A stretch of 21,731 nt of DNA. Origin: a virus. Both the position numbers and the translations under genes were made by a program. Within the stretch, counting starts at the first letter, position 1. Every line of letters starts with the position of its first letter. The notes beneath the pieces were generated by a model. The model did not search any database, had not been told where the DNA came from, and saw only the letters and a program-made list of their open reading frames with translations. Positions 8,428-21,731 of this stretch are shown piece by piece. The DNA is taken from positions 1 to 21,731 of IMG/VR virus record IMGVR_UViG_3300025168_000780. The stretch is one strand, 5' to 3'.

Positions 8428-9882
8428 ATGGCACAAAGAGCAAAACCAGTAATAACCAATGAGCCATATCTTTTCTCTATTGCGACTGACGACTCAAACT
8501 CTAACAGGACCCATGAGCAAAGAAGAAAATACTCACACGATATTGTTCGCCTTATAGGTCCAAAGCGCCCGTTTGACTTTTGGGGAAAAGACACTTATCT
8601 TGGACGAATAAATGTTGTGGGAAATGCTAGTATAGTAAATGAAACATATCTAAAGCAACTCAGACACTCTGATTCAAAAGAGCCTTTGTTTGCCATAAAC
8701 TTTGTAGCTGACGCCTGGCGAGACTTTGTTGACAAGTTGCAAGAACTAGCAGAAAAGGGGATATTGGATCCAGACGGACCTTATGCCAATCTTATAGCCA
8801 AGAAGTCCTTTAGGAGTGTGACTGCTGATTATCATAGGTATATGATTGATACAGTTTACCCTCTATTCACAGAATCTTACCTTGGGACCTTCAATCTAGA
8901 GAACAAAAGAATAAGGGATGTGGATTCATTTTTAAAAATATTTACTAATTTTGTTAATGAGTACGCCAAAGTGGTAGGTCCCATAACTGTATCTGGGTTT
9001 ATTGAAAGCACGTTTTGTTCTCCACTAAATAGTGGTTTGGTGATAAGCACAAGCGAAGATGATCACAATATTGATTTTACAAAATCTGAAAAGTATATGT
9101 TGGATGAGAACTTTGATCTTGTTTCTTCTATTGCAACTTATTACGGATTTGGTATTGATCAAAATGCGCCCTGGAGATTTGTTGCAGATCTTTCATCTCC
9201 GGCTATGAAAGAATATATGAGGGGCGTTGAAATAGAGAGCTTTGATTTAGGGAACCAAAACGATACAGATGACTGCGACAACCCTTTTATCCCAGATGAT
9301 TTTCCTGTTATAGACCCATTTGGTTACTCGGCAATACCGGGACTAGAAGATATTGTTAGACACGCTGTGGGATATAATGAATATCGAGAATCCTTAGCCG
9401 GTGTTGAGGATGCCGAAACAACTTTCAAAGTATTTTATTCAACAGCACACACAGAGGTGTGGCGCACTGATATGGATATCATCAAAGTTTATTTCTTAGA
9501 CTTCTACAATTCCCTAGTAAACCGTCAGCCTAATGTAAGTGTTCTCATCCCAGACGACACTGGAATATGCCTCAAGTCTCGTGTTGAGCTTATCAATCGT
9601 CAAGTAATGTCGTATAATAAGTTTAAGCAAAATGGAGCCTATGGTGACAAATGGAATTTAAAGTGCTACTATCTTCTTCGAAGAATTGAGAGAAAGATGA
9701 AACACTCAAACAAGTTTGTCAAGGAAAGTCTTAAAGAACTGATGAACGTTTATAATTTTGTTAGTGGTAACACCGATAGAAAATATCTGCTGGCGTTAAA
9801 GTATCTACAGCAAGATATCCTTGAACCAATTACAGCCTCTTCCTTAACGCTTGACACAGTTGGCGATATAAATAGAGTATAG
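8428..9882 (+). CDS. Conserved-looking protein of unknown function, probably structural
   Basis: A 484-residue soluble protein that is not recognised. It is rich in aromatic residues and Asp, with segments such as FWGKDTYLGRINVVG (residues about 51-65), YHRYMIDTVYPLFTES (about 136-151), NAPWRFVADLSSPAMKEYM (about 247-265), and a helical, Lys-rich C-terminus (RRIERKMKHSNKFVKESLKE). There are no membrane segments, catalytic motifs or long repeats. The gap from the upstream gene is 6 nt, so it is in the same transcription unit as the baseplate genes; a virion role is the best guess. It is followed 14 nt later by a polymerase gene with a TTG start. Confidence 0.75.
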   Translation: MAQRAKPVITNEPYLFSIATDDSNSNRTHEQRRKYSHDIVRLIGPKRPFDFWGKDTYLGRINVVGNASIVNETYLKQLRHSDSKEPLFAINFVADAWRDFVDKLQELAEKGILDPDGPYANLIAKKSFRSVTADYHRYMIDTVYPLFTESYLGTFNLENKRIRDVDSFLKIFTNFVNEYAKVVGPITVSGFIESTFCSPLNSGLVISTSEDDHNIDFTKSEKYMLDENFDLVSSIATYYGFGIDQNAPWRFVADLSSPAMKEYMRGVEIESFDLGNQNDTDDCDNPFIPDDFPVIDPFGYSAIPGLEDIVRHAVGYNEYRESLAGVEDAETTFKVFYSTAHTEVWRTDMDIIKVYFLDFYNSLVNRQPNVSVLIPDDTGICLKSRVELINRQVMSYNKFKQNGAYGDKWNLKCYYLLRRIERKMKHSNKFVKESLKELMNVYNFVSGNTDRKYLLALKYLQQDILEPITASSLTLDTVGDINRV

Positions 9883-9896
9883 AAAAAGAGTAAAAC

Positions 9897-11105
9897 TTGT
9901 TATTTCAAACTTTAGATGATAAGTCAGAGTGCGTCGGGATTTATTGCGACGGGCAATTAATATTTGACTTAGTGGATTTTCCTGAACAGATCTCTAGGAC
10001 GTGGAAATACTCTTCGTACTTACGAGATATAGAAGACATAGAGTATGCTAGTCTGTACCTTCAGGGACAGGACATACAGGATGCTATCCCAGAATATTTG
10101 AAAGATGACTGGGAGGATACGTCGGACAAGATCCGTGCGTTCCACAGGTCACTGCAAATATCAAAAGTAAATCAGTTTGAGAATTGTTTTTTTGATTTGG
10201 TTCCACAACGATTCCTGGTTGACTTTTGTGAAGTCAAGAACGATATTACAGATTACATCATAAAAAACATTGACAGGCCACAAAGATATGACTATCTTCT
10301 TAAGGTGTGCCAAATGCTAGAAGATATATCAAATAGAAGGCTAAACATAAATCTTAAGAAGTTGAAATCCTACCCAGAGAATAATATTCTAAAAGACATT
10401 TCTACAGGGAGCAGGTTTATAACTTATAATCAGTTTGGTACAAAGACTGGAAGATTAAGCACAGCTAAGAAGTCTTTTCCAATCCTAACGCTGAAGAAAG
10501 ACTATAGATCAATTATAGAGCCGGTCAATGACCGTTTTCTGGAGATCGACTTCAACGGGGCCGAGGCTCGTGTTCTTCTTGGGTTACTGGGAAAACAACA
10601 GCCTGACCAAGATGTTCATAACTTTCACCGGGATGAGGTTTTCTCTGGATCATTAACCAGAGAACAGAGTAAGACATCTTTTTTTGCGTGGCTATATGGG
10701 GCCAAATCAATCAACAATAGCAAAGAGGGCGATGTACTCAAGAGCTTCTATGATAAAGAAAATGTTGTCAATCAATTCTGGGATGGGACAACAGTAACAA
10801 CATCTTTGGGTAAAGTTATAAATGATGTTGACAGACATCACGCACTGAATTATATTGTTCAATCTACAACTGCTGAACTCACTTTGTTACAAGCTCTTAA
10901 GGTTGACTACCTATTGAGGACTAGGGCAAAAAAATCATTTATCTCTTGTATTATTCACGATTCTGTGGTTATAGATTTATCCGATGAAGACTCTCATCTT
11001 GTTCCATCTATAAAAGCTTTGATGAGTTCAACAAAATTTGGTGTGTTCAAGATAAATACTAGTATGGGTAATTCCTTGGGGAATTTAAAACACTATGAAG
11101 AATAA
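9897..11105 (+). CDS. Compact family A DNA polymerase, no exonuclease domain recognised
   Basis: A 402-residue protein holding the core motifs of DNA polymerase I-type enzymes. Seen in order: TKTGRLST (182-189); motif A, FLEIDFNGAEARVLLGLL with catalytic Asp218; the O-helix REQSKTSFFAWLYGA with Arg255, Lys259, Tyr267 and Gly268; LNYIVQSTTAE (317-327), equivalent to the Asn and Gln of Klenow; and motif C, IIHDSVVIDL, with Asp355. The usual Glu after that Asp is Ser356. The polymerase part is much shorter than Klenow, and the first 160 residues show no DxE exonuclease motif, though SECVGIYCDGQLIFDL could be a remnant. The start is TTG with AAAGAG just upstream; no ATG suits. It follows structural genes by 14 nt, away from the replication block. 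Possible roles are gap repair or RNA primer removal; both are inference. Confidence 0.8.
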   Translation: MLFQTLDDKSECVGIYCDGQLIFDLVDFPEQISRTWKYSSYLRDIEDIEYASLYLQGQDIQDAIPEYLKDDWEDTSDKIRAFHRSLQISKVNQFENCFFDLVPQRFLVDFCEVKNDITDYIIKNIDRPQRYDYLLKVCQMLEDISNRRLNINLKKLKSYPENNILKDISTGSRFITYNQFGTKTGRLSTAKKSFPILTLKKDYRSIIEPVNDRFLEIDFNGAEARVLLGLLGKQQPDQDVHNFHRDEVFSGSLTREQSKTSFFAWLYGAKSINNSKEGDVLKSFYDKENVVNQFWDGTTVTTSLGKVINDVDRHHALNYIVQSTTAELTLLQALKVDYLLRTRAKKSFISCIIHDSVVIDLSDEDSHLVPSIKALMSSTKFGVFKINTSMGNSLGNLKHYEE

Positions 11106-11952
11106 AATTATTGGCTTAGGAAAAGTCGGCTGTGGTATCGCCACAGAGTTTGAAGAATACCCAGAGTACCGTGTGTATAAAATTGGCACAGATTTAGAAT
11201 CACGAGGTAACTTTCACACTCACTTAGTAATTGAAAAGCAAGAGAGTATTCAAGACTATGAAGAGAAGTTTGATTCAATTGACGCAGAAGCTTATCTAGA
11301 GACGATCAAGCCAACTGATGAAGTTTTGTTTGTTGTTGAGGGTGGGGATCCAGTATCAGGAGTGATCCTAAGTCTTCTGGAGAAGATAAAGAACACAAGA
11401 ATAAGCATCCTATATGTATGCCCGGACCCAGATGTTAGTTCTTTGGTACAAATGAGAGATAGTAAAATAGTTTTTAATATTTTGCAGGAATACGCTCGCA
11501 GCGGTCTTTTCAAGAGGATGTATATTTTCAATCGAACAAAGGTAGAAGAGTTGATTGGGGATGTGTCTATTGCAGAGTATGAAAAGAGCGTTTATCATTT
11601 CATAGCATATATGATAGCTATGACAAAGTACTTTGACAATTCAGGATCTGTACTTGAGAGCCGAAATGAACCAGTGAATATAGCAAGAATATCAACTTTT
11701 GGAGTCACTTCATTAGACAAGCGAGCGGAAATTCGTTTTCTTTATCCGATAGAAGAAGAGAAAAATGCACACTTTTATTTTGGCATTCCTGATGAAATGC
11801 TGGCTACGGACAACGAATTGATGAGAAAGATTAAAACGCAAATGAAAAACTTCTCAAAAGAAGGAGTAGATACGGGCTTTTCAGTTCACGCCACGGATCT
11901 TGAGAGAACTATAGTACTGTGTTCGTTCCATGCCAGTAAGATTCAAAACTAA
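11095..11952 (+). CDS. Divergent FtsZ/tubulin-like protein
   Basis: A 285-residue protein with the outline of the FtsZ/tubulin fold. IIGLGKVGCGIA (5-16) matches the N-terminal glycine loop. EYRVYKIGTDLES (24-36) matches the following strand, where FtsZ has I-N-T-D. VLFVVEGGDPVSGVILSLLE (77-96) matches the strand, T4 loop and helix, and ISILYVCP the next strand. YIFNRTKVEELIG (143-155) and the helix after it resemble the FtsZ region beginning N-D-K-L. The canonical GGGTGTG is EGGDPVSG, and no N-x-D-x-x-D T7 loop is seen, so GTP hydrolysis and normal polymerisation are uncertain. The C-terminal part (about 195-285) is beta-rich, compatible with the tubulin C-terminal domain. It overlaps the polymerase gene by 11 nt. 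A Rossmann-type NAD-binding protein is the main alternative. Confidence 0.5.
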   Translation: MKNKIIGLGKVGCGIATEFEEYPEYRVYKIGTDLESRGNFHTHLVIEKQESIQDYEEKFDSIDAEAYLETIKPTDEVLFVVEGGDPVSGVILSLLEKIKNTRISILYVCPDPDVSSLVQMRDSKIVFNILQEYARSGLFKRMYIFNRTKVEELIGDVSIAEYEKSVYHFIAYMIAMTKYFDNSGSVLESRNEPVNIARISTFGVTSLDKRAEIRFLYPIEEEKNAHFYFGIPDEMLATDNELMRKIKTQMKNFSKEGVDTGFSVHATDLERTIVLCSFHASKIQN

Positions 11953-12049: not shown

Positions 12050-12493
12050 ATGAACAAAACAAACTCAAGAGGAATATTATTGGCCTCTTTCATCACATCA
12101 GATTCTGAAGAAGATATCCTAACAGAAGTAGAAAACATAGCTAATACTTTCTACCTTTCCAACAATATGATATTTCTGTTGAAGATTACTGATGCGCCCG
12201 AGAAAAAAATTATAACATACAACGCCCTCATAGAAAAAGGGAAACCATTAAATACACGATTGTTTACGATGCGTGTTCACAGAAAAAAGAACACAAATAC
12301 TTTATATACAATAAATGCCTTAAACGCTGCGGTCGCCAAAGATAATAATGGTAAAACAGGGAAACACTTAAAGCTTGACTGGGAGCAATACAGAAACTCA
12401 ATAATGTTATTGACGGGCTCAGAATTAAAGACACACCCAGTGGAAGTCTTGAGGGTGTTTAAGGTCGAGACAAGTGAAGAACCCGAAGAATAG
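12050..12493 (+). CDS. Protein of unknown function
   Basis: A 147-residue protein, not recognised. It begins with a hydrophobic strand (RGILLASFIT), followed by an acidic helix (SEEDILTEVENIANTF), another hydrophobic strand (NNMIFLLKIT), and a basic central part (FTMRVHRKKNTNTLYTINAL, residues about 76-95). KLDWEQYRNSIMLLTG near 110-125 and an acidic end complete it. This alternation suggests a compact alpha/beta protein without membrane segments. It follows the tubulin-like gene after a 97-nt gap with its own candidate promoter motif. No function can be given. Confidence 0.75.
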   Translation: MNKTNSRGILLASFITSDSEEDILTEVENIANTFYLSNNMIFLLKITDAPEKKIITYNALIEKGKPLNTRLFTMRVHRKKNTNTLYTINALNAAVAKDNNGKTGKHLKLDWEQYRNSIMLLTGSELKTHPVEVLRVFKVETSEEPEE

Positions 12494-13012: not shown

Positions 13013-13789
13013 ATGGGTATTGACTTGAGCAAGATGAGAGCAAAGCACGCTGCTCTTACGACCAGGGGAGGCGACTCCTCAGAAAACTATTGGAAGCCAG
13101 ACGAGGGCACGCACCAGTTGCGACTAGTATGCCCGCCAAACGGCGATCCATTCTTTGAGGCATATTACCACTACGGCATGGGTGCCGAAGGTAAGACTAC
13201 TGTCCTCAGTCCACGCACTAATGGCGATCCCGATCCCATTGCAGAGTGGGGAACCAGTCTTTGGAACGAAGGCACTGACGGCTCAAAGGAAGCAGCAAAA
13301 CGCTTCTGGCCTAAGATGCGAGTGTTCGCTCCCATCGTCGTCCGTGGCGAAGAGGACAAAGGCGTTCGCTGGTGGGGCTTTTCCCGCACCACCTACCAAG
13401 CACTACTTGATGTAGTTCTTGACCCCGAGTACGGGGACATTACCGATACCGAAAAGGGTACGGACATTCGCATTGACTACGGCAAGAAGTCGGGTCAATC
13501 ATTCCCAACGACTGATGTGCGCCCTATGCGCCGCACCTCACCCTTGGCGAAGACCGAAGAAGAAATCAACACTCTTCTTGAAACCATCAAAGTCGCTGCG
13601 GATGTTTTTGAAGTTGCTACTTACGAGGCTTGCCAAAAGGTTCTTAATGATACCTTAGGCGAATCTGACACCGAGACCACAACTACCTCGGAGTCTACTC
13701 GTTATAGCAATAACACCCCAGCCCAAAAGGATACGGGCATCGAAGGTGTTCAGGACATTGAGTCAGCGTTTAACGATTTGCTGTCATAG
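13013..13789 (+). CDS. ssb: Single-stranded DNA-binding protein, gp32-like
   Basis: A 258-residue protein of the phage gp32-like SSB type, which coats ssDNA and coordinates polymerase, helicase and RecA. Seen: a basic N-terminus (LSKMRAKHAALTTRGG); an OB-fold region with FFEAYYHYG (47-55), KTTVLSP (61-67) and RFWPKMRVFAPIVVRGEEDK (97-116); then GVRWWGFSRTTYQALL and YGDITDTEKGTD (140-151), the conserved gp32-type pattern. A Ser/Thr-rich linker (about 215-240) leads to an acidic tip ending DIESAFNDLLS, the usual partner-binding tail. The Cys/His zinc site of T4 gp32 is not seen. It has a strong promoter and ribosome site, and a stable hairpin follows before recA. Confidence 0.85.
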   Translation: MGIDLSKMRAKHAALTTRGGDSSENYWKPDEGTHQLRLVCPPNGDPFFEAYYHYGMGAEGKTTVLSPRTNGDPDPIAEWGTSLWNEGTDGSKEAAKRFWPKMRVFAPIVVRGEEDKGVRWWGFSRTTYQALLDVVLDPEYGDITDTEKGTDIRIDYGKKSGQSFPTTDVRPMRRTSPLAKTEEEINTLLETIKVAADVFEVATYEACQKVLNDTLGESDTETTTTSESTRYSNNTPAQKDTGIEGVQDIESAFNDLLS

Positions 13790-13853: not shown

Positions 13854-14924
13854 ATGGCTAAAGCGGCTCAAGCTAGCCTTGTAAATGATTTGCGCAACGA
13901 ATTAAACAAGGCAGCTAAAGAAAATATTGCGTATGATTTACACGGGGACAACCCCACGGATGTAAAGACTTGGATTTCAACCGGCTCAACGCTTTTGGAT
14001 TATATTATTTCCAACCGCAGAGACGGCGGGATCCCTGTTGGCAAACTTACCACGATTGCTGGTGAGTCTGCTAGTGGCAAGAGTCTTGTTGTGACTCAGA
14101 TTCTAGCGAACACACAAAAGATGGGAGGCGTCGCTGTTTATATTGATACAGAGAACGCAGCCTCCCCAGATTTTATGGAACAACTAGGCCTTGATACAAA
14201 GAACAACTTTATGTATGTTCAGCCCGGCACGATTGAAGAGGTGTTCGAAACTATTGAACGTCTCATCGGACTCATCAGGGAGAAGGCCCCTGATAAGCTA
14301 GTCTGTATTGTGTGGGACAGTGTTGCTGGAACTCCAGTCAAGGCTGAGATTGAAGGGGACTATGATCCCAACAGCCGTATCGGTCTGACTGCCAAGGCAC
14401 TAGCCAAAGGTATGCGGAAAGTAACGGAGACACTTGGCAAGGCTCAGATCGCTATGGTTTTCACTAACCAGTTGAAGACTAACATCGGCGTGATGTTCGG
14501 GGACAACCGAGTGGAGCCAGGTGGTAAGGCACTACCCTACCACGCTTCCAGTCGTATCTGGCTGACCCAGCACAAGGGAAAAGCCAACGGTCAGATTCTA
14601 AACGAGAAGAAGCAGGTCATTGGTTTCCATACCAGTGCCAAGACGATGAAGTCTCGCTTCGGACCATCACCAAGGAGTTGTCAGTTCGATGTACTGTTTG
14701 ACCTTGCTAACGACCGTGTTGGCGTTGATGATGAAAGTTCCTGGCTTAGTGCTATCGCTGGCACGCCTGGCTGTATTCGCAGCGGCGCTTGGTATACTGT
14801 CAATGTTGACGGCGAAGATAAAAAGTTCCAAAGCAAGGACTTTCCGAAACTTCTAGAAGACAAGAAATTTAAAGAAAGAATTCTTGACATTCTAGAGGAT
14901 GAGTGTAAAATAGGTAAGAAGTAA
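13854..14924 (+). CDS. recA: RecA/UvsX-family recombinase
   Basis: A 356-residue strand-exchange ATPase. Seen: STGSTLLDYII (42-52), Walker A GESASGKS (70-77), YIDTENA (96-102) with catalytic Glu100, Walker B LVCIVWDS (149-156), and the L2 region beginning TNQLKTNIGVMFGD (204-217) with the conserved Gln206. Then EPGGKALPYHASSRIWL (221-237) matches the RecA pattern for DNA-binding and ATP-site residues. Walker A is closer to bacterial RecA than to T4 UvsX. It would load on gp32-coated DNA for recombination-dependent replication and repair. The start follows ATGGAG at about 13844. The C-terminal lobe is more AT-rich than the core. It is followed after 18 nt by the 5' nuclease gene. Confidence 0.92.
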   Translation: MAKAAQASLVNDLRNELNKAAKENIAYDLHGDNPTDVKTWISTGSTLLDYIISNRRDGGIPVGKLTTIAGESASGKSLVVTQILANTQKMGGVAVYIDTENAASPDFMEQLGLDTKNNFMYVQPGTIEEVFETIERLIGLIREKAPDKLVCIVWDSVAGTPVKAEIEGDYDPNSRIGLTAKALAKGMRKVTETLGKAQIAMVFTNQLKTNIGVMFGDNRVEPGGKALPYHASSRIWLTQHKGKANGQILNEKKQVIGFHTSAKTMKSRFGPSPRSCQFDVLFDLANDRVGVDDESSWLSAIAGTPGCIRSGAWYTVNVDGEDKKFQSKDFPKLLEDKKFKERILDILEDECKIGKK

Positions 14925-14942: not shown

Positions 14943-15896
14943 ATGAAAAGATTGCTTATCATTGATGGACAAAATATGTTCATCCGTAACTATGTTATGT
15001 CTCCCCAATTGGATATCAACGGGAATCCAATTGGGGGGCTGACTGGTTTTATGCGCTCCCTTCAGAAGGAAGTGCGCCGTGCTAAACCTGACCGAGTTGT
15101 AGTTTGTTGGGAAGGTCCGGGTGGCTCACAAGCTCGCAGGGAAAAGAACAAGAATTATAAACTTGGACGTAAAGCCCCAAAGCTTAACCGAGAGTATGAG
15201 TTTGCTACACCAGAAGCTGAAAGAGAAAATAAATACGACCAGCTTATGAAGCTGACGGAGTATCTGGAGCAACTTCCTGTTCTTCAGGTGTCCTTGGAGA
15301 ATGTAGAGGCTGACGACATCATCGCTTGGCTCTGTCATTGTAGTGAGTATGACGAGTGGCAGAAGGTTATTGTATCTAATGACCAAGACTTTTTGCAGCT
15401 TTGCGATGATAAGACTGTTTTGCTGCGACCCGGCAAGAACGAACAGGTTATTAATAAGAATAAAGTGCTTGAGGAATATGGTATACATCCTCGTAACTTT
15501 GCGTGGGCACGAGCAGTTGTTGGAGACAAATCTGACAATTTAGAAGGAGTTAGGGGACTAGGCTTAAAGACAATGGCTAAAAGATTTCCCTTCCTTTCAG
15601 AAAATAAAGACTATGGTCTTGAAGATATTTTAACGCACGCAGAAAATAATAAAAATAAAGTCCAGGCTTTTCAAAAAGTTCTTGAAAGTAAAGAAATTAT
15701 TGCCTCAAATTATGATATTATGCAGCTATATACCACTGTCATATCACCGCAAGGAGTCCGCAAATTAAAATATGCAATTGAGAACGACGGGGTTGATCTC
15801 AATCGCACCAAAATTAGGACAATGCTCCTCAAAGATGGGATTGGCACTTTAAATATTGACGAGCTTATGTTGATGCTCAACTCTCACAGAAAATAA
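14943..15896 (+). CDS. 5'-3' exonuclease (FEN family; RNase H of T4 type)
   Basis: A 317-residue structure-specific 5' nuclease that removes RNA primers and flaps. Acidic metal-ligand positions are present: LLIIDGQNMF with Asp8, VEADDII with Glu122, Asp124 and Asp125, VIVSNDQDFL with Asp147 and Asp149, and VVGDKSDNL with Asp195 and Asp198. GVRGLGLKTMAKRF (202-215) is the helix-three-turn-helix DNA-binding motif. The basic arch region (about 62-80, RREKNKNYKLGRK) matches the family. The fold is complete, and its length is near that of T4 RNase H (305 residues). The final third, from about 15540, is noticeably richer in A and T. GGAGACC at about 14934 supports the start. It would work with the polymerases and SSB on the lagging strand. 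Confidence 0.88.
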   Translation: MKRLLIIDGQNMFIRNYVMSPQLDINGNPIGGLTGFMRSLQKEVRRAKPDRVVVCWEGPGGSQARREKNKNYKLGRKAPKLNREYEFATPEAERENKYDQLMKLTEYLEQLPVLQVSLENVEADDIIAWLCHCSEYDEWQKVIVSNDQDFLQLCDDKTVLLRPGKNEQVINKNKVLEEYGIHPRNFAWARAVVGDKSDNLEGVRGLGLKTMAKRFPFLSENKDYGLEDILTHAENNKNKVQAFQKVLESKEIIASNYDIMQLYTTVISPQGVRKLKYAIENDGVDLNRTKIRTMLLKDGIGTLNIDELMLMLNSHRK

Positions 15897-15955: not shown

Positions 15956-17461
15956 ATGACCGAACAACAGCACGATACATTTAGCAAGTTCGGAAAATCC
16001 TTCCAAGAAAAATTAGTAAAGACCATCCTCTTTGATCGTAACTTTGCGAATCAAATGGAGGAGGTTCTAGACACCAGTTATCTAGAGTTGAAATACCTTC
16101 AAGTTTTTGTGGACCTGATGTTCCAGCACAAGCAGTCCTACCCGCACCCAACTTATGAAGCAATGGTTTCAGTTGTGCGGACACAGACCGAAGATTACTC
16201 AGATAGTATTATTAAACAGGTCATCGAGTTTATGGCTCGCATCAAGAGCAATGCTATCGGTGACGAGGACGAAGAGTATGTCAAGGAGAAGTCCCTAGAC
16301 TTTTGTAAGAAGCAGAAATTAAAAGAGGCTATCCTCAAGTCGGTAGACCTCCTTCAGTCCCAGAGCTTTGATCAGATCCAAAAGGTCATCAATGAGGCGA
16401 TGAACCTCGGCGCTGATAACGACCACGGGCACGACTACCATGAAGATGTTCTTGACCGCTTTGAGATGAAGATGCGCAATCCCGTCTCTACTCATTGGGA
16501 TGAAATTGATATGATTACCAAAGGCGGACTTGGCAAGCGAGAGCTTGGCGTAGTGGTCGCCCCAACTGGCGCAGGCAAGTCTATGGCTCTTGCCCACCTC
16601 GGCGCAATGGCTGTGGTCAAAGGCAAGACGGTAGTCCACTACACTTTAGAACTCGCAGACACTGTGGTTGGCCAACGCTATGACTCTTGTATCACGGGTA
16701 TCGAGCTAACGAGCTTAATGTCTATGAAGGATTCTATTGTTGAGGCAGTAGCACTTATCCCTGGACAACTCATTATTAAAGAGTATCCCACCAAGTCGGC
16801 ATCCACTCGCACAATTTTGACGCACCTAGAGAAACTGAAACAAAAGGGTATCAATCCCGATATGATTATCGTGGACTACGCTGACCTTTTGAAACCAACA
16901 GCCTCTGGATTTAAGACTCAGGAACTCCGCCACAGTCTCGGCAATACCTATGAAGAACTACGAGCCATCGGTCAAGTGTGGGACATTCCAGTATGGACAG
17001 CATCCCAGACCAACCGTAGTGGATTGAACGCCGAGGTCATCACGATGGAAGCTATCAGTGAAGCATTTAGCAAGTGCTTTGTGGCTGACTTTATCTGTTC
17101 CATCTCCCGCACGGTTGAGGATAAGACTGAGAACAAAGGTCGTATGTTCGTAGCCAAAAACCGCAACGGTGTTGACGGCATTGTCTACCCAATGGAAATT
17201 GATACCTCTAGGGTTCACATGCGAGTTCTTCCGCCTGACGAGCACTCAACAATTGATGCAGTGGTGATGAAGACTAAGCAGGAACAAGATGAACACCTTC
17301 GGAAGAAGTATAAAAAGTTCAAAGCGACCCGAGACAAGAAAGCAGAAGACGCCCGCCAAAAAGCGGACGATAAAAAAAAACAGAATGAAGACCAAAAAAG
17401 TATTAAACAAGGGTTACGAGATTTAAAACAAAAACTTGAAGAGGAGAAAGCGGCATCATGA
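15956..17461 (+). CDS. Replicative DNA helicase, DnaB family (gp41-like)
   Basis: A 501-residue hexameric 5'-3' helicase. Residues 1-150 form the helical N-terminal domain. The RecA-like motor has GGLGKRELGVVVAPTGAGKS ending with Walker A (202-209), the catalytic Glu region HYTLELAD (228-235), Walker B MIIVDYADLL (303-312), and the sensor WTASQTNRSG (347-356) with Gln351. FVAKNRNG (398-405) supplies the Lys/Arg finger. Residues about 438-501 form an extra, very charged Lys/Glu/Gln tail, probably helical, that could bind a loader, primase or polymerase. The gene has its own promoter. Its end overlaps the ribonucleotide reductase start by four bases (ATGA), so translation is probably coupled. 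A run of nine A (17372-17380) lies in the tail. Confidence 0.9.
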   Translation: MTEQQHDTFSKFGKSFQEKLVKTILFDRNFANQMEEVLDTSYLELKYLQVFVDLMFQHKQSYPHPTYEAMVSVVRTQTEDYSDSIIKQVIEFMARIKSNAIGDEDEEYVKEKSLDFCKKQKLKEAILKSVDLLQSQSFDQIQKVINEAMNLGADNDHGHDYHEDVLDRFEMKMRNPVSTHWDEIDMITKGGLGKRELGVVVAPTGAGKSMALAHLGAMAVVKGKTVVHYTLELADTVVGQRYDSCITGIELTSLMSMKDSIVEAVALIPGQLIIKEYPTKSASTRTILTHLEKLKQKGINPDMIIVDYADLLKPTASGFKTQELRHSLGNTYEELRAIGQVWDIPVWTASQTNRSGLNAEVITMEAISEAFSKCFVADFICSISRTVEDKTENKGRMFVAKNRNGVDGIVYPMEIDTSRVHMRVLPPDEHSTIDAVVMKTKQEQDEHLRKKYKKFKATRDKKAEDARQKADDKKKQNEDQKSIKQGLRDLKQKLEEEKAAS

Positions 17462-20733: not shown

Positions 20734-20762
20734 AAAACCATAAGAAAATAGAAAGGTTGCTA

Positions 20763-21731
20763 ATGGATAACCGCACCGAAAGCAAGATCCCATTCGTGGG
20801 ATTACATGCTCACTCTGGACTCTCACCGTTTGACGGGCTGGGGATGCCTGGCGAACATATGGACTTCGCCTATGAGAATGGGATGAACGCCCACGCTCTG
20901 ACCGACCACGGTCACATGAACGGGCTCTCGTTTCAGGTGGAACATTTAAAGAAAATGAAGGAAGACGGTAAAGACTTCCGAGCCATCTACGGATGCGAAT
21001 CCTACTTCATTAAGTCCCATCGTAAATGGCGCACGATGTACGAGGAGCACAAGGCTAACTCTAAGAAGCAGAAGAAGGAAGAGTATGGGATGGTCATCGA
21101 GGATGAGGACCGCCAGAAGAAGTTCAATCCTCTCAATAGCCGCAGTCACCTTGTGATGTTTGCCCAGAATCAGACCGGGTTAAATAATCTTTTTAAACTA
21201 GTTTCTGATAGTTACCAGCCTGAAAACTTCTATCGTTATCCTCGTATGGATTTTGAGATGCTAGACAAGTATAACGAGGGGCTCATCATCAGCACCGCTT
21301 GTATGTCTGGTCCACTGTTTGGAGACTTTTGGAAGAACCGAGATAAGAGTCCAGACCATGTACTGTCTGCAATGCGGGACACTATTGCTCAGTTCAAGGA
21401 GATCTTCGGCGACAGGTTCTACGGAGAGATCCAGTGGAATGATATTCCTGAGCAGCATCTCGGCAACAATCTTATTATTCAAGCCTGTATGGAAATGGGC
21501 GTAGAGGTCATCAGCACAGCCGATAGCCACTACCCACGACCAGAGCTTTGGAAAGAGCGAGAGATGTACAAGCGCATCGGCTGGGGAGGCAAGATCCCAG
21601 CGTGGGCTGAGGGCGGTAACGGCCTTCCCGACTCGGTTGATGAGGTCGGCTATGAACTCTATCCGAAGAACGGCGACCAGATGTGGGAGAGTTATAAGAG
21701 CTACTCCGCCAAGCATCGCACCGAGTACGAT
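20763..21731 (+). CDS. dnaE: DNA polymerase III alpha subunit (DnaE-type), N-terminal part only
   Basis: The first 323 residues of a bacterial-type replicative polymerase; the frame runs off the window, so the catalytic palm and the rest are unseen. The part seen is the PHP domain. GLHAHSGLSPFDGL gives His15, His17 and Asp24. ALTDHGHMNG gives His49. IYGCESYF gives Glu79, and SRSHLVMFA gives His129. IISTACMSG gives Cys180, and ISTADSHYPRP gives Asp254 and His256. Together these match the nine metal ligands of PHP domains that retain activity; E. coli DnaE has lost some of them. A Lys-rich insertion spans about 86-120. GAAAGG lies 6 nt before the ATG. It has a terminator-promoter boundary of its own. 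Confidence 0.88.
   Translation, partial: MDNRTESKIPFVGLHAHSGLSPFDGLGMPGEHMDFAYENGMNAHALTDHGHMNGLSFQVEHLKKMKEDGKDFRAIYGCESYFIKSHRKWRTMYEEHKANSKKQKKEEYGMVIEDEDRQKKFNPLNSRSHLVMFAQNQTGLNNLFKLVSDSYQPENFYRYPRMDFEMLDKYNEGLIISTACMSGPLFGDFWKNRDKSPDHVLSAMRDTIAQFKEIFGDRFYGEIQWNDIPEQHLGNNLIIQACMEMGVEVISTADSHYPRPELWKEREMYKRIGWGGKIPAWAEGGNGLPDSVDEVGYELYPKNGDQMWESYKSYSAKHRTEYD

Follow-up and report, generated by a model that had tools for sequence, protein, structure and literature searches.

A very likely catalytically dead member of the tubulin/FtsZ superfamily encoded beside a small DNA polymerase in a family of viruses

We found that a viral gene, here called tub1, encodes a degenerate protein of the tubulin/FtsZ superfamily, which is very likely a catalytically dead tubulin ('pseudo-tubulin'); its fold is predicted, and the loss of hydrolysis is inferred. 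The whole stretch of DNA analysed (the window) is one viral record of 21,731 bases, in which tub1 occupies 11095..11952 on the plus strand and encodes 285 aa, and the assignment rests on an AlphaFold2 model, structural matches and a family of at least 586 viral loci. Tubulin-superfamily proteins are almost always GTPases, and the phage tubulins PhuZ and TubZ are already known. An abundant and conserved viral branch without the catalytic element, one lineage of which is also without the nucleotide site, is a natural test of this fold in the absence of GTP turnover.

The frame 11095-11952 is no chance reading frame, because its relatives, at identities from 93% down to 27%, are distributed over many independent viral contigs. 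Its dN/dS was 0.044 against the nearest distinct relative, the median in the family was 0.055 (17 close pairs), and its ATG overlaps the stop codon of the upstream polymerase gene. Thus, it is a real gene, as the preliminary description of this DNA had held, and it is under strong purifying selection. The family loci were confirmed by a profile scan of IMG/VR; their number is a lower bound and may include redundant contigs. No relatives were found in GenBank phages by tblastn with three family members as queries or in cellular genomes in one scan, and the single sequence gave nothing useful against Pfam, PHROGs or PDB sequences. The family has no name and is carried by a large group of uncultured viruses of bacteria, which we take to be probably marine from the IMG sample numbers.

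The tub1 model, built with 14 sequences, showed pLDDT of 89.9 and pTM of 0.89. A Foldseek search of the PDB returned FtsZ and TubZ as its top matches (best E 2.5e-12). VIA-align of residues 1-285 gave Z of 24.4 for CetZ, 23.7 for TubZ and 22.5 for FtsZ, with 263-282 residues aligned at Z 21-24, and the best 50 rows were all tubulin, FtsZ, CetZ or TubZ. The predicted structure is a complete two-domain tubulin/FtsZ fold, with the GTPase-type domain, the core helix H7 and the C-terminal domain in one chain. The sequence criterion for the superfamily, profile similarity above decoys, is also met: hhalign gave E 1.9e-4 against an FtsZ profile built from 10 sequences and a stronger E 3.4e-6 against the phage TubZ-like protein described below as tub2, whereas ten unrelated phage decoy families gave E 0.035-0.82. 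With the tub1 profile as query, tub2 ORFs are also retrieved (E 1e-7 to 9e-7). For TubZ and PhuZ proper, the comparison with tub1 was by fold and not by profile. The family lies below the Pfam thresholds: the window tub1 did not match PF00091 (Tubulin GTPase domain, cut-off 33 bits), and only weak matches were obtained in 7 of 58 relatives (best E 0.0064). The preliminary description had proposed a tubulin/FtsZ-like identity, to be checked by fold search and profile search and to be refuted by a plain Rossmann dehydrogenase fold or the lack of a tubulin C-terminal domain. Both searches were positive, with matches to FtsZ, TubZ, CetZ and tubulin across both domains, and the refuting outcome did not occur; this interpretation of the fold was therefore right. 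A plain Rossmann/NAD-binding protein, for which a GxGxxG pattern and weak TrkA_N matches could speak, was rejected on the full-length fold match, and marginal PDB profile matches (phosphoglycerate mutase, E 0.005) were judged to be chance.

In FtsZ and tubulin, the T7 loop supplies the catalytic acids for the GTP of the neighbouring subunit. In the tub1 model, helix H7 (residues 159-182) is followed by a 16-residue linker without any helix (residues 183-198; 11641..11688, plus strand) in place of the T7 loop and helix H8, then by strand S7 (199-205), and S8 comes directly after S7 without H9. The linker is exactly 16 aa long in all the 136 aligned members, and an NxDxxD-type T7 motif is absent from it in this whole set, save for one chance acid pattern. 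Inspection of the segment between S2 and S4 revealed no recognisable T3 glycine loop. Since the T7 acids are absent and the model lacks H8 and H9, we infer from sequence and model that canonical GTP hydrolysis is very unlikely for any member of the family. That such decay can occur in the superfamily is shown by the thaumarchaeal FtsZ Nmar_1262 of Nitrosopumilus maritimus, which reportedly has no T7 loop, shows no GTP-binding activity and does not polymerise (PMC3684127). It resembles tub1 as an FtsZ-family protein without the T7 loop but is cellular, not viral; the two sequences were not compared.

With regard to the nucleotide site, the loss comes in two grades. We defined the window's clade as the 21 sequences at >=40% identity, leaving the remaining 115 of the 136 outside. 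The T1 glycine loop IIGLGKVGCGIA (residues 5-16; 11107..11142, plus strand), which reads IIGLGKVGC in the window, is retained in both groups: G7 is kept in 135, G9 in 136 and G12 in 134 of the 136 members, and GLGxxGC in nearly all of them, so that the T1 criterion of FtsZ/TubZ is met. On the other hand, the T4 position of the window tub1, EGGDPVSGV (residues 82-90; 11338..11364, plus strand), has Asp for Gly85 and then Pro, and does not meet the GGGTGTG-like signature of the FtsZ/TubZ/PhuZ GTPases. Gly85 is present in 105 of the 115 members outside the clade and in none of the 21 inside, all of which have P86. Similarly, the T6 base-contact position, which aligns to an invariant Asn of tub2, is R147 in the window (11533..11535, plus strand) and Asn in the rest of the family (111/115 outside against 0/21 inside), and the H7 base-contact position is Y167 (11593..11595, plus strand) in place of the family's Asn (112/115 against 2/21). 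In the window's clade, the contacts to base and phosphate have been lost together while purifying selection continued, giving it the look of a pseudo-GTPase, though this may be one event because the clade members share ancestry. The preliminary description had claimed the replacement of GGGTGTG by EGGDPVSG, the loss of canonical GTP-site residues, the absence of a T7-loop acid pair and an order of elements, from the glycine loop to an N-R-T-K helix, that follows FtsZ and tubulin. All of these were confirmed, the last as to order, and the T1 glycine loop is present and conserved. The reading of the N-R-T-K segment was only partly right: it matches the 'N-D-K-L' region of FtsZ (T6/H6), but the profile alignment places the base-contacting Asn at R147 and not at N146, so that this Asn is lost as well. 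Overall, tub1 is like FtsZ in the two-domain fold, the T1 loop, the element order and the profile match, and differs in lacking T3, T7, H8 and H9 and in altered T4, T6 and H7.

Outside the window's clade, T4 Gly85, T6 Asn147 and H7 Asn167 are kept, and therefore most members may still bind guanine nucleotide, which is an inference from the residues. This raises the alternative of a nucleotide-stabilised static polymer, in which most tub1 proteins would bind GTP via T1, T4, T6 and H7 and form stable, non-turning filaments, while the window's clade would have gone a step further and do without nucleotide. Its support is that the main branch keeps the T1 glycines, the T4 Gly and the T6 and H7 Asn while T7 is missing throughout. 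Against it, known T7 mutations of FtsZ disturb polymerisation (PMC3684127), and the model is without H8 and H9, the helices that form the lower interface. We consider this alternative very unlikely, though still open.

The most invariant residues of tub1 are not in the nucleotide loops. The most conserved motif is VFNILQEYARSG (residues 126-137; 11470..11505, plus strand) in the C-terminal half of helix H5, where Q131 and S136 are found in 136/136, R135 in 135/136 and E132 in 131/136 members; Arg198 before S7 is also invariant. The C-terminal end of H5 likely faces away from the nucleotide, as inferred from the fold topology without examination of coordinates.

The genomic position of tub1 is almost fixed. 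A small family-A DNA polymerase, PolA (9897..11105; 402 aa; PF00476, E 1.6e-13), overlaps its start; no 3'-5' exonuclease domain was seen in these 402 aa, and the catalytic Asp, His-Asp, Lys, Arg and Tyr are invariant in 65 of 65 polymerases. In 52 of the 54 loci measured, the tub1 ORF overlaps or abuts that of PolA (-16 to +2 nt between PolA stop and tub1 start), which suggests that the two genes are likely translationally coupled, an inference from the ORF overlap. With few exceptions, a locus runs from baseplate/tail genes through a 484-aa protein, PolA and tub1 to optional small genes, and then on to SSB, RecA, exonuclease and helicase; many loci also have ribonucleotide reductase. In the window, the module after tub1 comprises a single-strand DNA-binding protein (13013..13789; phrog_1192, E 2e-16), a RecA/UvsX-like recombinase (13854..14924; tblastn to phage RecA, 39% to that of Microcystis phage Mel-JY01), an exonuclease (14943..15896; phrog_107, E 4.5e-23) and a DnaB-like replicative helicase (15956..17461; phrog_19, E 1.8e-71), all on the plus strand like PolA. 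The window phage also encodes ribonucleotide reductase and, at 20757-21731, the start of another DNA polymerase (phrog_405, PHP/DnaE-like) besides the small PolA-type one. The T4-like tail genes noted in the preliminary description were confirmed by PHROG matches to T4-type tail tube (phrog_4542, 1.5e-20), baseplate hub (phrog_150, 9.4e-19) and wedge (phrog_7145, 1.9e-8). The conserved 484-aa protein upstream of the polymerase (8428-9882 in the window) has no significant Pfam or PHROG match. A 147-aa protein of unknown function follows tub1 (12050..12493, plus strand); it was found in 11 loci, all in the window's clade, where the nucleotide site is degraded, and it is a candidate for a tub1 partner. 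A small protein with a hydrophobic stretch at 12582-12929 matches the mechanosensitive channel beta-domain weakly (E 0.0095).

This arrangement suggests a possibility that tub1 is a replisome subunit unrelated to filaments, that is, a structural accessory of the small PolA-type polymerase or SSB, with the fold reused as a protein-binding scaffold. The constant order of PolA, tub1 and SSB with overlapping ORFs, the intact catalytic residues of the polymerase and the location of the most invariant tub1 residues, at the H5 C-terminal end and before S7, are in favour of it. On the other hand, most of the family still conserves the nucleotide site, for which a mere scaffold would have no use, and related phages have the module without tub1: at the corresponding place in Mel-JY01 and in the 484-kb LR756508, tub1 is absent and other genes are found, with the same module downstream. 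Thus, tub1 is not obligatory for such a replication module. The replisome reading is unlikely, though it remains open. The Mel-JY01 gene P0002, near the place of tub1, was rejected as its counterpart, as no tubulin features were read in it by eye. The PolA-like proteins of Mel-JY01 (L097:13778-15004) and LR756508 (L098:10827-12185) have YDA in motif C instead of the His-Asp of the window's polymerase family, which points to relatives that are divergent or inactive.

A second tubulin, tub2 (examples in L187:1399-2535 of G001, L188 of G004 and L189 of G007; families L192-L304), came to light when the long contigs behind the tub1 loci were searched with the tubulin model of Pfam. Most tub2 proteins are 345-434 aa long, and they fall into two types: one has 378 aa, and the first example of the second has 402 aa. 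The first type is above the Pfam cut-offs for PF00091 and TubZ-like_C, and the other reaches 28.4 bits against the PF00091 cut-off of 33. The T1, T4 and T7 motifs are present in both types, as is a glycine segment resembling T3, and a joint tub2 profile matches FtsZ over the full length (E 8.3e-16). The tub2 model, made by the same method as that of tub1 but weaker (pLDDT 72.6), has H8 and H9 (249-256 and 277-292). Thus tub2, which belongs with the TubZ/TubZ-like phage tubulins (PF00091 + PF22453), shares the fold of tub1, gives its best profile match and is co-encoded in the window's clade, but has all the T loops, the T7 acids, H8 and H9, whereas tub1, of about 285 aa, lacks the T7 acids and both helices. 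The tub2 genes adjoin those for terminase, portal and head protease; a common genomic slot was rejected, as one type of tub2 precedes terminase and the other is placed between portal and head protease.

All the eight L187-type tub2 contigs that reach about 32 kb downstream (G001, G004, G011, G016, G018, G020, G021 and G022) also carry a window-clade tub1, with tub2 about 32 kb upstream of it. In one main-branch genome (G007), tub1 occurs together with tub2 of the other type. The window record does not extend far enough to show tub2, but the virus likely has it, because its tub1 belongs to the tub2-carrying clade. A bolder reading is a two-tubulin system. In it, tub2 would be the intact GTPase and tub1 its paralogue, which would have abandoned nucleotide binding in the lineage with L187-type tub2; by analogy with alpha/beta tubulin or with a dedicated cap, the two would co-assemble and so organise the replication and packaging of phage DNA. 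We regard it as unlikely but not excluded; which of tub1 and tub2 gave rise to the other is unresolved. From phages with two distinct tubulins one could learn how subunits that hydrolyse and subunits that do not came to split, which is otherwise studied in alpha/beta tubulin.

Our favoured function, which we offer tentatively and which may well prove wrong, is that of an adaptor or cap that acts on a tubulin-type polymer without hydrolysing GTP and is tied to phage replication; it is inferred without interaction data. In this view, tub1 would bind via tubulin-type subunit contacts without turnover, sit at the end or side of a GTP-driven polymer and hold the replication machinery or phage DNA in place. 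In phages with tub2 this polymer would be that of tub2, and in the others that of host FtsZ or of tub1 itself. The fold, the absence of T7, H8 and H9, the clade's loss of G85, N147 and N167, the selection and the position between PolA and SSB support this, together with the canonical tub2 in 8/8 sufficiently long contigs of the clade with the lost site and a tub1 profile nearer to tub2 than to FtsZ. Two results stand against it. Mel-JY01 and LR756508 have the same downstream module without tub1 there. Moreover, tub2 was not detected with the tub2 profile in six tub1 contigs of 123-191 kb whose packaging module is otherwise intact, and thus tub1 cannot depend on tub2 in general; a general need for tub2 was rejected. 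Host FtsZ as partner is a possibility but a conjecture, because no host is known. The preliminary description had suggested a regulator of host FtsZ or a scaffold; these roles remain proposals, with the non-hydrolysing part supported by the lost catalytic residues.

Alternatively, tub1 may possibly be a decoy of host cell division, which would mimic an FtsZ subunit and cap one protofilament end, growth stopping there for want of T7 and H8. SulA and MciZ stop FtsZ growth by other folds. The FtsZ-like fold with one polymerising face altered, and the retention of tub1 in phages without detectable tub2, are in line with a decoy. However, tub1 is fixed in a replication operon with its ORF overlapping the polymerase gene, which is not typical of early genes for host takeover; no host is known, and by profile tub1 resembles phage tub2 rather than FtsZ. 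Returning to the adaptor or cap, if tub1 does bind tub2 or FtsZ, it would be a ready-made protein for either purpose.

PhuZ of the nucleus-forming jumbo phages is likewise a phage-encoded protein of the tubulin superfamily, and a role of tub1 in placing phage DNA is plausible by this likeness. PhuZ forms dynamic filaments in phages above 200 kb (PMC4244570, PMC8314001), whereas tub1 lacks the catalytic element and its contigs reach at most 191 kb. The fixed place of tub1 beside a DNA polymerase would link the cytoskeleton of phages to their replication in a group other than the jumbo 'phage nucleus' phages. In the open-access literature searched (most subscription papers and all preprints were outside its scope), we came across neither a phage tubulin without T7 that is tied to a DNA polymerase nor such a two-tubulin arrangement. 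A survey of jumbo phages reported two distinct FtsZ/tubulin representatives among them (PMC7824862). In our own material, a jumbo-size contig of 284,429 bp (L295 in G010), without tub1, carries a tub2-type tubulin among different neighbours.
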